34,544 bases of DNA, taken from Bacillota bacterium. GTDB taxonomy: Bacteria > Bacillota > UBA5301. Location of the stretch: positions 1-34,544 of the forward strand of contig JAAYHC010000047.1 of assembly GCA_012735535.1 (NCBI GenBank), written 5' to 3'. A program made the translations under genes and the position numbers. The notes under the pieces were generated by a model, which was not told the origin of the DNA, searched no databases, and saw only the letters and a list, made by a program, of their open reading frames with translations. Below, in pieces: positions 173 through 33,157 of the stretch (position 1 is its first letter; the number at the start of each line of letters is the position of its first letter).

Positions 173-217
173 ATAAGCTAACATTATCAAATTTAATAGA
201 TCTAACCAATTAAACAA

Positions 218-320
218 CCTAATCAAGAGAGGTGGAGGGACTGGCCCTATGAAACCCGGCAACCGCCAGCAATGGAAATGGTGCCAATTCCTGCAGGACT
301 TTGATCCTGAGAGATAAGGG
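218..320 (+). ncRNA. SAM-I (S-box) riboswitch aptamer
   Basis: aatcaagagaggtggagggactggccctatgaaacccggcaaccgcc...ggtgccaattcctgc...gagagataaggg matches the S-box consensus; upstream of metNIQ. Confidence 0.93.
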
Positions 321-21914: not shown

Positions 21915-22322
21915 TTATGTTAAGGTAAAACAGCCCAGCGTGGCTACCCGCGAATATTCTTTGGCCAACACCTCATTCATATTCAGTTCGAGCAGATCAC
22001 ACAAGGCCGCGATGTAAAATTGGGTTCGTCCGATTTCCGCTTCGATGATCTCTTTGCAGTGTGGGCAGAGATCACCTTCGAGGTGGGTGTGCATATAATC
22101 TTTAAGATCGCTATAAGACTCCAGATCTTGTGGAAAAGCTTGTCGCTCCGCCCTGACTCGGACACACCCGCAGAGCGTTACGGACTTGGCAACCGCTCGG
22201 TTGATGCGGGCGCAGGACTCTTGAAGTTTCGTTGTGACATCGAGGATGCTTTTGTGCCGGATTAGGCACTGGGATACGGTCTGCTGAAACTTGTCATAGG
22301 TACAGCCATCCACTGAACACAC
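21915..22322 (-). CDS. Conserved hypothetical, Cys-rich helical protein (start GTG 22322 or 22313)
   Basis: ARINRAVAKSVTLCGC...HLEGDLCPHC...KEYSRVATLGCFTL; SD and promoter upstream. Confidence 0.75.
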   Translation of the reverse strand: MCSVDGCTYDKFQQTVSQCLIRHKSILDVTTKLQESCARINRAVAKSVTLCGCVRVRAERQAFPQDLESYSDLKDYMHTHLEGDLCPHCKEIIEAEIGRTQFYIAALCDLLELNMNEVLAKEYSRVATLGCFTLT

Positions 22323-22343: not shown

Positions 22344-22373
22344 ATTATAACTACCAGAAAATTAGGTTGTCAA
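22344..22373 (-). promoter_or_regulatory. Promoter TTGACA-18-TATAAT for the Cys-rich hypothetical
   Basis: Minus-strand consensus hexamers. Confidence 0.7.
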
Positions 22374-22426: not shown

Positions 22427-22496
22427 TTGACAACCACCAAGGCTCAATGATATAATACAAATTTTATTGACTTTCCAGACTAAAGTACGATACAAT
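22427..22496 (+). promoter_or_regulatory. Tandem carD promoters: TTGACA-18-TATAAT (22427-22456) and TTGACT-18-TACAAT (22467-22496)
   Basis: Near-consensus hexamers with identical spacing. Confidence 0.7.
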
Positions 22497-24254: not shown

Positions 24255-24278
24255 CCCATGTATCTGGGGGGATCAGCC

Positions 24279-24980
24279 ATTGCTGTTTCGGTAATTATTC
24301 CTGCTGCCGGGTACGGCAAACGGATGGGCAGTGAGATCAATAAACAGTTTCTGCTGCTGGGCGGTATTCCGGTGGTCGGCCGGACTGTCCGGATCTTTGC
24401 CGAGATGCCGGAGGTGGCCGAGATTGTGCTGGTAGTCAGGTCCGATGAACTTGCCTTCGCTTTGGAAACTGTGGTACAAGCTTATGGGCGCGGTAAAACC
24501 AGGGCGGTGGCCGGTGGCCGAACTCGGCAGGAATCGGTATATCACGGTTTGGCCGCTCTTTCAGCGGAGAGTGAGGTTGTACTCATTCACGATGGGGCCA
24601 GACCCCTGATCGAGCCGGGGTTGGTGCGCCAGGTTATTGCTGCAGCCGAAGAGAACGGGGCGGCGATCGCTGCTGTGCCGGTGAAAGATACGATTAAGGT
24701 TGTGGAGAATGGATGGGTCAGCGAGACCTTGCTCCGGGACAAGCTCTGGGCGGTCCAGACCCCCCAGGCCTTTAAACGGGAGATCATCTTGGCAGCACAT
24801 CAAGGTGCTATCGGGCTTGAGGCTACCGATGATGCCGCGCTGGTGGAAAGACTGGGGTATGCGGTCCGGGTTGTTCCCGGTTCTTACAAGAATATCAAGA
24901 TCACCACACCGGAAGATTTGCTTCTGGCCGAGGCCTTTCTCAAGGAGGATAACCGAGATGCGGGTAGGAATAGGATATGA
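24279..24980 (+). CDS. ispD: 2-C-methyl-D-erythritol 4-phosphate cytidylyltransferase; probable AUU start at 24279
   Basis: [40 protein letters not shown] 24266-24272; ORF track starts at 24258. Confidence 0.92.
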
Positions 24981-25440
24981 TGTTCATCGCCTGGTTGAGG
25001 GCAGACGTTTAGTCCTGGGCGGGGTTGTGGTCCCCTTTACCAAAGGCTTGCTTGGTCATTCTGATGCCGATGTACTGGTCCATGCGATTATGGATGCTCT
25101 GTTGGGGGCGGCCGGGCTGGGGGACATTGGCAAGCACTTTCCGGATACCGATCCGCAGTACAAGGATATCTCCAGCCTGGAACTGTTGGAGCGGGTCGGC
25201 GGCCTGTTGCGATCAGCCGGGTATCAGGTTGTCAACATTGATGCGGTGGTGATTGCCGAAGCACCAAAATTAGCACCCTATATTCAGCAAATGCGCGCCA
25301 ATATTGCGGCCAGATTGCAGATCGCACCGGAAGGAGTCGGAGTCAAAGCGACTACCAGCGAAGGTTTGGGCTTCGTCGGTACGGGGCAAGGCATGGCGGC
25401 GCAAGCGGTCTGTTTACTGGCGTGCCGAGAAGAGGAGTGA
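24958..25440 (+). CDS. ispF: 2-C-methyl-D-erythritol 2,4-cyclodiphosphate synthase
   Basis: [51 protein letters not shown] 24958, overlaps ispD. Confidence 0.96.
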
Positions 25441-25446
25441 GCGTGG

Positions 25447-26229
25447 ATGTTAATTAGAGAAGTAAAGGAATGGATGCAAACTTTTCCCGCGAAAGTTCAC
25501 TACGATGCCACCGTGGCTGAGGCGCGGGATCTAATGCTCGAAAGCAAGTTCGGTCGGATTCTGGTGGTCGACCGTGAAGATAGATTAATGGGGATTCTCA
25601 CCGATAGTGATGTGCTCGCTGCAACCGATCATTCCGTGAAGGTTGAGACGATCATGACACCGGTGGTGGTCTCGGTTTACGAGAATCAGACTATTCGCGA
25701 TGCCGGCAGATTGCTGGTGGAAAATAAGATTGCCGGGGTCCCGGTAGTCGACTCCGAGGGCAGGGTGGTCGGGCTGCTGACGGCCCGCGATATCCTCAGA
25801 GGTTACTTGGCGGAAGAGGATGAAGTCCGGTTGAGCATGGAGACTCTCGCCATTAACTTGGCGATGACCAGACACCGGGAGGATGAGCGGTATTGGTTGG
25901 ACCGGTCTAAACATTTTGGTTACCGGGCAGCGATCACTCAGGTGGGGGCCGGCCCCGATAAACTCGCGACCAAACTACGGGAGAGCACAATCGCGGCGGC
26001 GATCGCTCGCAAAGTCATCAGTGAGGATTCCCGGGAAAAGATTGCCGTTTCCCAAGCGGTCCGGGATGCGTTTTTCCAGCTATCCTTGATTAATCCCGGT
26101 CTCGGCGGGGGTTTTAAGGTTTCGGCGGTTCGCGGTGACGGCAGAATCACCGTGGTGATCTTCGGCCGCTTCGGCCATGCTTTAGCGGATGGACCGGAGC
26201 AAATCGCCGTGGGTTATAGTGTTATTTAA
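25447..26229 (+). CDS. CBS-domain pair fused to HutP-like C-terminal domain
   Basis: Two CBS motifs (residues ~10-120) then LAMTRHREDERYW...GYRAAITQVGAG...GFKVSAVRGDGRITVVIFGRFGHALADGPEQIAVGYSVI resembling HutP. Confidence 0.75.
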   Translation: MLIREVKEWMQTFPAKVHYDATVAEARDLMLESKFGRILVVDREDRLMGILTDSDVLAATDHSVKVETIMTPVVVSVYENQTIRDAGRLLVENKIAGVPVVDSEGRVVGLLTARDILRGYLAEEDEVRLSMETLAINLAMTRHREDERYWLDRSKHFGYRAAITQVGAGPDKLATKLRESTIAAAIARKVISEDSREKIAVSQAVRDAFFQLSLINPGLGGGFKVSAVRGDGRITVVIFGRFGHALADGPEQIAVGYSVI

Positions 26230-26241
26230 GGAGATGGAACT

Positions 26242-27705
26242 ATGGTGGAGCGGGTCAGGGCGCGCTTTGCCCCCAGCCCAACAGGGCTGTTGCATATCGG
26301 AAATGTACATACCGCGCTATTTACTTGGCTTTTTGTCCGCCATCACGGCGGAGAGTTCATCTTAAGAATCGAAGATACAGACCGTGAGCGGTCAACTGCC
26401 GAGTATGAGCGGTTAATTTTAGAGGACCTTAAATGGCTAGGGCTTGACTGGGACGAAGGAGTCGATATTGGCGGACCCTACGGGCCTTATCGACAGACCG
26501 AGCGGATGCAGATTTACCGGGAGTATGCCGAACTGCTTCTCGCGCGAGGTTGGGCTTATTACTGTTATTGTACCCCTGAGGAGCTGGCAGCCGACCGAGC
26601 AAGAAGTGCCGCTTTAGGCGAGCCGCCGCGGTATTCGGGGCGGTGCCGGAACCTGACCGCAGCCGAGCGGGCGGCTTTAGAGGCCGAGGGTAGACAACCG
26701 GTACTGCGGTTTAAGACTCCGCCGGGAGAGGTGGTGGTCGTGAAAGACCTCCTCCGCGGCGAGATCAGCTTCAATACCGATGATCTGGATGATTTTGTCC
26801 TGGTCAGATCGAATGGGGTTCCGCTTTATAATTTTGCGGTGACCGTCGACGATTTGACGATGAAGATTACCCATATCGTGCGGGCCGATGAACATATCTC
26901 CAATACCCCCCGCCAGATCTTGATCTATCGGGCTTTGGAGGCCGAGCCGCCGGAATTCGCCCATGTATCCATGCTCTTGGGGCCGGACCGGTCTAAACTC
27001 TCCAAACGACATGGTGCCACCTCTTTACGTGAGTATAAAGAGAAAGGGTATCTGCCGGAAGCGATCTTCAACTATCTGGCAACCTTAGGTTGGAGCCTGC
27101 CGGACGATCGGGAGATTGCCGACCGGGAGGAGCTGATCCGCCTCTTTGACCTCTCCCGGGTTAGTCGCTCCCCGGCCGTCTTTGATCCGGAGAAAGCGGC
27201 CTGGATGAACGGGGTTTACCTACGACAGGCTGATTTAACCGTCCTGACAGAGCTGGCTTTACCGTATCTGCGGGAAGCTGGGTTGCTTTCCGAAGGCGCA
27301 CCGGTCGACCTTGACTGGCTGCAGCGGGTCGTAGATATCGGTCGAGAAGGGATTTCTTGTTTGAGCGAGCTACCGGCGGCGGTTGAGCTCTTTTTCACAG
27401 CCCAACCGGATTACGATCGTGAAGCGCTGGCGATCCTTGCGCACGAAGGTGTACGCGAGATTCTCCGACGTTTTCGGGATAGTATCGCCACTTGGGATGA
27501 TTTTAACCCGGAGGCGGTCCGGGAGGCAATGAAGGAAGTTCCCCGCGCTATGGGGCTGGGGTTGGGCAAAGCCTTCAAACCTTTGCGCGTGGCTTTGACC
27601 GGCCGGGTTTCCGGGCCGGAGTTGTACCAGGTTATCAGCTTATTTGGTCGCGACAAAGTCCTGGCCAGGCTGGATTATGTCACCGACCACCTGTTGACAG
27701 AGTGA
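26242..27705 (+). CDS. gltX: Glutamyl-tRNA synthetase
   Basis: RARFAPSPTGLLHIGNVHTALF, SKLSKRHGATS. Confidence 0.97.
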   Translation: MVERVRARFAPSPTGLLHIGNVHTALFTWLFVRHHGGEFILRIEDTDRERSTAEYERLILEDLKWLGLDWDEGVDIGGPYGPYRQTERMQIYREYAELLLARGWAYYCYCTPEELAADRARSAALGEPPRYSGRCRNLTAAERAALEAEGRQPVLRFKTPPGEVVVVKDLLRGEISFNTDDLDDFVLVRSNGVPLYNFAVTVDDLTMKITHIVRADEHISNTPRQILIYRALEAEPPEFAHVSMLLGPDRSKLSKRHGATSLREYKEKGYLPEAIFNYLATLGWSLPDDREIADREELIRLFDLSRVSRSPAVFDPEKAAWMNGVYLRQADLTVLTELALPYLREAGLLSEGAPVDLDWLQRVVDIGREGISCLSELPAAVELFFTAQPDYDREALAILAHEGVREILRRFRDSIATWDDFNPEAVREAMKEVPRAMGLGLGKAFKPLRVALTGRVSGPELYQVISLFGRDKVLARLDYVTDHLLTE

Positions 27706-27721
27706 CCGGGCATGGTATAAT
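27694..27721 (+). promoter_or_regulatory. Promoter TTGACA-16-TATAAT for cysE-cysS leader
   Basis: Hexamers overlapping the end of gltX. Confidence 0.7.
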
Positions 27722-27764
27722 GAAAGCAAATTAAACCTGACTGACATAGTCAGATTGATATTGA

Positions 27765-28010
27765 CGATGAAAGGGAGAGTAGGCCGGCTGGAACTGGCGG
27801 CAGAGACCATTGGTCGGCGGCTGAGAGCCAATGGGCCAGATGCTTGGACCGAAGTGCACCCTGGAGTTGACAGCCCGAACTTGATAGTAGGGTTGTCCGC
27901 TTGGTAGCGTTAAAACCGCATGAGGGGGATCAGGCCGTTGTTGGCCGATCCAAACAGAGTGGAAACGCGAGGACTTCGTCTCTGTAGGCAACTACGAGGC
28001 GAAGTTTTTT
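27765..28010 (+). ncRNA. T-box leader, tRNA-Cys specificity, with terminator 27973-28010
   Basis: gatgaaagggagagtagg AG-bulge-like motif, specifier gaagTGCacc (UGC 27855-27857), T-box AGAGTGGAAACGCG, terminator ACTTCGTCTC...GAGGCGAAGTTTTTT. Confidence 0.88.
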
Positions 28011-32752: not shown

Positions 32753-32828
32753 GCTGGCGTAGCTCAATTGGTAGAGCAGCTGACTTGTAATCAGCAGGTT
32801 GCGGGTTCGAGTCCCATCGCCAGCTCCA
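32753..32828 (+). tRNA. tRNA-Thr(TGT)
   Basis: GCTGGCG acceptor, loop CTTGTAA, CCA encoded. Confidence 0.97.
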
Positions 32829-32837
32829 GTTCTAACC

Positions 32838-32867
32838 TTGATAAAGCACCATAAGCGTGCATATAAT
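32838..32867 (+). promoter_or_regulatory. Possible internal promoter TTGATA-18-TATAAT before tRNA-Gly
   Basis: Hexamers in the tRNA-Thr/tRNA-Gly spacer. Confidence 0.45.
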
Positions 32868-32880
32868 TTAGGTACACCGA

Positions 32881-32957
32881 GCGGGAGTAGCTCAGTTGGC
32901 TAGAGCATCAGCCTTCCAAGCTGAGGGTCGCGGGTTCGAGTCCCGTTTCCCGCTCCA
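32881..32957 (+). tRNA. tRNA-Gly(TCC)
   Basis: GCGGGAG acceptor, loop CTTCCAA, CCA encoded. Confidence 0.97.
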
Positions 32958-32962
32958 AACAT

Positions 32963-33038
32963 CGCGGGGTGGAGCAGTTGGCAGCTCGTCAGGCTCATAA
33001 TCTGAAGGTCGAGGGTTCGAGTCCCTCCCCCGCAACCA
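32963..33038 (+). tRNA. Initiator tRNA-fMet(CAT)
   Basis: C1:A72 mismatch (CGCGGGG...CCCCGCA-ACCA), A11:T24, anticodon loop CTCATAA. Confidence 0.93.
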
Positions 33039-33081
33039 AATGACAATATCGATCTTTCGATATGCTATTTTTGTTTTTTGG

Positions 33082-33157
33082 GCCCACATAGCTCAGTCGG
33101 CAGAGCGCATCCATGGTAAGGATGAGGTCGTCAGTTCGATTCTGACTGTGGGCTCCA
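33082..33157 (+). tRNA. tRNA-Thr(GGT)
   Basis: GCCCACA acceptor, loop ATGGTAA, CCA encoded. Confidence 0.97.

Follow-up and report, generated by a model that had tools for sequence, protein, structure and literature searches.

A conserved CBS–HutP fusion encoded behind ispD and ispF in Bacillota, a probable metabolic regulator

HutP is the textbook RNA antiterminator that is triggered by an amino acid, and it binds RNA with NAG repeats. To our knowledge, HutP biology has been confined to histidine use, and the only member of the HutP superfamily known to us as characterised is an RNA binder. Sensors built on CBS pairs, such as DarB/CbpB, OpuCA, AcuB and CcpN, form the second group of described systems relevant here. 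The protein analysed in this work, hereafter CBS-HutP, combines both. It resembles HutP of Bacillus in a homologous domain (PF09021) whose predicted order of helices and strands is apparently that of HutP, and differs from it in carrying a fused CBS pair and in lying outside a hut operon. With the CBS-pair sensors it shares the CBS pair with its ribose-binding motifs and structural matches to binders of AMP, Ap4A, c-di-AMP and SAM, whereas its effector is a HutP-fold domain. The gene lies in a contig of 34,544 nucleotides from a Bacillota genome, referred to as the window, and the features on which the analysis depends are as follows.

25447 to 26229, plus strand: CBS-HutP gene, an open reading frame of 260 aa with Pfam CBS and HutP matches
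25447 to 25812, plus strand: CBS pair by Pfam, about residues 1–122, with G-h-h-[T/S]-x-x-D ribose motifs at residues 49–55 and 109–115
25837 to 26226, plus strand: HutP-family domain, residues 131–260 (PF09021, 2e-24); all of 33 orthologues agree at 56 of its 130 positions
24258 to 24980, plus strand: ispD (Pfam IspD), the upstream partner in almost all CBS-HutP loci
24961 to 25440, plus strand: ispF (Pfam YgbB), immediately upstream with a 6-base gap
26242 to 27705, plus strand: gltX (Pfam tRNA-synt_1c), 12 bases downstream, replaced by murA in another carrier group
22427 to 22456, plus strand: predicted sigma-70-like promoter ahead of carD, perfect consensus (consensus scan, 12/12 matches)

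The reading frame starts with ATG just downstream of a Shine-Dalgarno-like GAGGAG. As the first-pass annotation had proposed, Pfam finds a CBS pair (2.4e-30 over two stretches) followed by HutP at residues 133–256 (2e-24; 86.7 bits, where the curated Pfam cut-off is 25), and this is the sole HutP-family protein of the host genome. The fusion is probably already visible in domain databases. A literature search of open-licence PMC articles found no paper pairing HutP with CBS domains. Among the best 25 NCBIfam matches, of which the 25th scores 23.2 bits, there was neither a full-length equivalog for CBS-HutP nor the HutP equivalog, so the protein stays under the cut-off of the latter (155 bits).

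Kinship of the C-terminal 130 or so residues with HutP, claimed from sequence patterns, is borne out by profile comparison, and the predicted topology is compatible with it. A family profile from 22 HutP-family members, CBS-HutP included, retrieves the solved Geobacillus HutP 4ok9 at E=1e-6; such a profile was needed, as a single-sequence phmmer search of the C-terminal domain against solved structures returned no HutP. Profile–profile comparison by hhalign with six true HutPs gave a probability of 90.5% (E=1.4e-6, 122 columns), and other groups of the family matched more strongly, namely solo HutP types with HxxxH (98.6%), RxxxR (97.4%) and GxxxG (97.0%) at the ligand helix. In an AlphaFold2 model from 33 orthologues (mean pLDDT 88), the C-terminal domain is ordered helix-helix-strand-helix-helix-strand-strand-strand, which we take to be the order in HutP as well. 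A model of this domain alone, made without an alignment, reached a pLDDT of 42 and was not used. Foldseek with the full model returned CBS-type structures for all of the best 50 matches, including binders of AMP, Ap4A, c-di-AMP and SAM.

Residues important in HutP have largely been exchanged. Profile–profile alignment with true HutPs places SREKIAVSQAVRDA opposite YRESHALYHATMEA and DGPEQ opposite KGLEH, so that the ligands H73, H77 and H138 correspond to I199, Q203 and Q252, exactly the I, Q and Q of the first-pass annotation. In 33 orthologues position 199 varies (I/M/L/V/S), position 203 is N in 28, Q in three and S in two, and position 252 is Q throughout. Loss of the histidine ligands is thus fixed in the subfamily and, as had been asked of its homologues, is conserved together with the CBS fusion, which every complete member shares. 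RNA contacts in HutP are presumably made by T56, T99, T128 and E137. The three threonines are invariant in the true HutPs aligned here and appear in CBS-HutP as A183, G220 and R241; of the four, E137 alone has a preserved counterpart, E251. Hence the RNA target of CBS-HutP, if there is one, is probably other than that of HutP. The acidic residue E81 is also retained, as D207.

CBS-HutP is a real, conserved and uncharacterised subfamily that forms one clade. Searching 399 Bacillota genomes with a profile of the C-terminal domain identified it in 35, the window's own included. Thirty-four complete matches score 230–264 bits in open frames of at least 256 aa, all of them CBS fusions, and in the remaining carrier (G197) contig ends divide the gene into pieces of 217 and 65 bits; beyond these 35 genomes no match exceeds 58 bits. 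Carriers spread over 14 family labels and include seven of seven sampled genomes from the class of the window. Plasmid and phage collections gave no match. In the tree CBS-HutP is a single clade (support 98/94; 35 rows including one fragment) on a long stem, and because several long branches meet, the deep order is unsure.

Conservation is distributed very unevenly along the protein. Pairs of the 33 orthologues share on average 76% identity across the HutP domain and 40% across the CBS pair, where only 5 of 117 positions are invariant; judged from these alignments, the core of the protein under strong constraint is its HutP domain. The ribose-binding motif is nevertheless retained in both CBS repeats (T/S52 in 26/33 and D55 in 33/33 orthologues; T/S112 in 33/33 and D115 in 32/33), and both sites therefore look usable.

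The position of the gene is equally constant. As far as contigs reach, the 35 loci follow the order radA-disA-carD-PIN/TRAM-ispD-ispF-CBS-HutP, with disA missing from the cluster in five loci of one genus (f53/g133). Directly upstream is ispF in 32 and ispD in 2 of 34 testable loci, and one contig ends at this point. Gaps to ispF mostly range from overlap to about 30 bases; larger gaps occur in some genomes of high GC and may come from the choice of start site. Of 22 sampled genomes that lack CBS-HutP, 11 have gltX directly behind ispF, at a distance of −14 to 121 bases, and the other 11 have other genes after ispF or no detected gltX. These counts and the Pfam assignments of the neighbours agree with the earlier remark that a gene between ispF and gltX is unusually placed.

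As the next recognised downstream gene, 19 loci have gltX and 14 have murA, and gltX was rejected as a constant partner since murA holds its place in a large group of carriers. In addition, a terminator-like hairpin follows cbs-hutP in one locus (L112), and a hairpin with a promoter-like site precedes gltX in another (L125), which argues against gltX as a constant target. The site ahead of carD is a candidate promoter for carD-PIN/TRAM-ispD-ispF-cbs-hutP-gltX. A further promoter-like site with perfect consensus (27694–27721) lies ahead of the cysE T-box, and, judging by the placement of these two sites, cbs-hutP is probably co-transcribed with its neighbours from carD to gltX. No common leader-type RNA element was recognised by eye in the gaps after the CBS-HutP gene. 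The only nearby Rfam cis-element is the T-box ahead of cysE, an ordinary leader between gltX and cysE (27758–27986, plus strand, 107 bits).

Solo HutP relatives help to understand what the fused domain may do. True HutPs adjoin histidine ammonia-lyase in four genomes (G335, G292, G066, G244). The host genome lacks this enzyme, and so do 14 of 27 other tested carriers, 15 of 28 altogether; where carriers do have it, it is encoded elsewhere in the genome, away from CBS-HutP. Histidine use is therefore an unlikely task for CBS-HutP. The commonest solo type, GxxxG, has G, G and E at the three ligand positions, and in 48 of its 57 loci the very next gene encodes a chorismate mutase of the AroH type. 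The RxxxR type has R and R at the helix positions and keeps the third histidine (L137, L145, L147, L158), and a further type keeps HxxxH and the third histidine (L144, L152, L155, L156, L159). All of these lack CBS domains, and the tree separates them from the CBS-HutP clade. Since the same positions are changed in solo types without CBS, histidine loss is independent of CBS fusion.

The clostridial GxxxG type deserves its own mention (loci L004-L057 and L143; examples L133:5388-6170 and L130:5841-12001). Further along these loci, DAHP synthase, an aminotransferase, prephenate dehydrogenase, AroA and Cmk are often found. The type appears to be a regulator of aromatic amino acid synthesis that is so far undescribed; our literature search found no paper on it in this role. 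It is like CBS-HutP in having a HutP domain without the histidine triad, and unlike it in lacking CBS domains, in forming a separate clade with a long stem, and in its neighbour, which is chorismate mutase instead of ispD/ispF.

According to the model that we tentatively prefer, at somewhat less than even confidence, CBS-HutP would be a dedicated intracellular regulator in which a nucleotide-binding CBS pair controls a HutP-fold effector, most likely one acting on RNA. The CBS pair would bind a nucleotide that contains adenine (AMP/ADP/ATP, SAM or c-di-AMP), and the bound nucleotide would set the state of the effector domain, whose oligomerisation we infer. The effector would then act on RNA, probably the transcript of its own ispD-ispF cluster, working without the histidine/Mg2+ switch of HutP and probably on a target other than NAG triplets. 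Membership in the HutP family by HMM and profile–profile comparison speaks for this model, as do the canonical ribose motifs in both CBS repeats, the fusion in every complete member of one clade with a sharp score gap, and the strict place behind ispD/ispF, where gaps are mostly small or the genes overlap. Moreover, HutP relatives are tied to single pathways, true HutP to hutH and the commonest solo type to aroH. Loss of T56, T99 and T128 and the lack of a common leader-type RNA after the gene speak against it, and a HutP domain so highly conserved could also be a ligand-binding or catalytic one. CBS-HutP is probably a metabolic regulator; its putative RNA binding is suggested by family membership. 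That it founds a separate, new class of RNA-acting regulators within Bacillota, with a CBS-driven, histidine-free HutP fold coupling adenylate or c-di-AMP status to ispD/ispF expression, is a more specific proposal that we consider unlikely.

The main rival to an RNA-acting effector is a metabolite-binding or protein-partner domain, for instance one sensing an MEP intermediate or tuning IspD/IspF, to which the CBS pair would add energy status. Many of the 56 invariant HutP-domain positions are basic or polar, among them R142, R144, K176, R178, K198, K224, R229, H244, D207 and Q252. The closest constant neighbours are ispD and ispF, the presumed RNA contacts of HutP are gone, and the hairpins and promoter-like site of L112 and L125 speak against gltX as the constant target. 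However, the one characterised protein of the superfamily is an RNA binder, and the gene order kept in an old housekeeping cluster may reflect descent and not function, so we hold this alternative to be possible, on the less probable side. The first-pass annotation had instead supposed a HutP-like antiterminator in which CBS domains replaced the histidine/Mg2+ switch. HutP homology, histidine loss, the conserved fusion and the locus have all stood, and ligands lost and CBS gained do coincide in one clade; the replacement itself is not supported in that form, since solo types lack these ligands without having CBS domains. With three of four presumed RNA contacts also exchanged, the strict form of this model is improbable.

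A further reading would make the CBS pair a receptor for c-di-AMP specifically, in the manner of DarB/CbpB or OpuCA. CBS proteins include known c-di-AMP receptors (PMC7900238). Upstream of cbs-hutP, disA is present in most loci, and all 35 carrier genomes have a diadenylate cyclase domain. Most Bacillota have such a domain, however, and with c-di-AMP near universal in the phylum the co-occurrence is weak: it allows c-di-AMP as a ligand and hardly supports it. In the five f53/g133 loci without disA in the cluster another cyclase serves. Absence of c-di-AMP from carriers without cluster disA, which would exclude it as ligand, was rejected as well, on the same 35/35 count. We regard specificity for c-di-AMP as distinctly improbable.

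Found in the hut operon, beside genes for aromatic amino acids and in an isoprenoid-linked CBS fusion, the HutP fold may be a broader regulatory platform of Bacillota. If so, sensing of other metabolites by this fold and gating of RNA binding by CBS domains become directly testable.

Some further elements of the window were recorded. Between disA and carD, a Cys-containing protein of 135 aa (21918–22322, minus strand) had no Pfam or NCBIfam match, and roughly half of the CBS-HutP loci conserve it there. Two divergent promoter-like sites with perfect consensus lie beside it, at 22344–22373 on the minus strand and at 22427–22456 on the plus strand. An ordinary SAM riboswitch (217–320, plus strand, Rfam 85 bits) and an ordinary cluster of four tRNA genes (32753–33154, plus strand) are also present.
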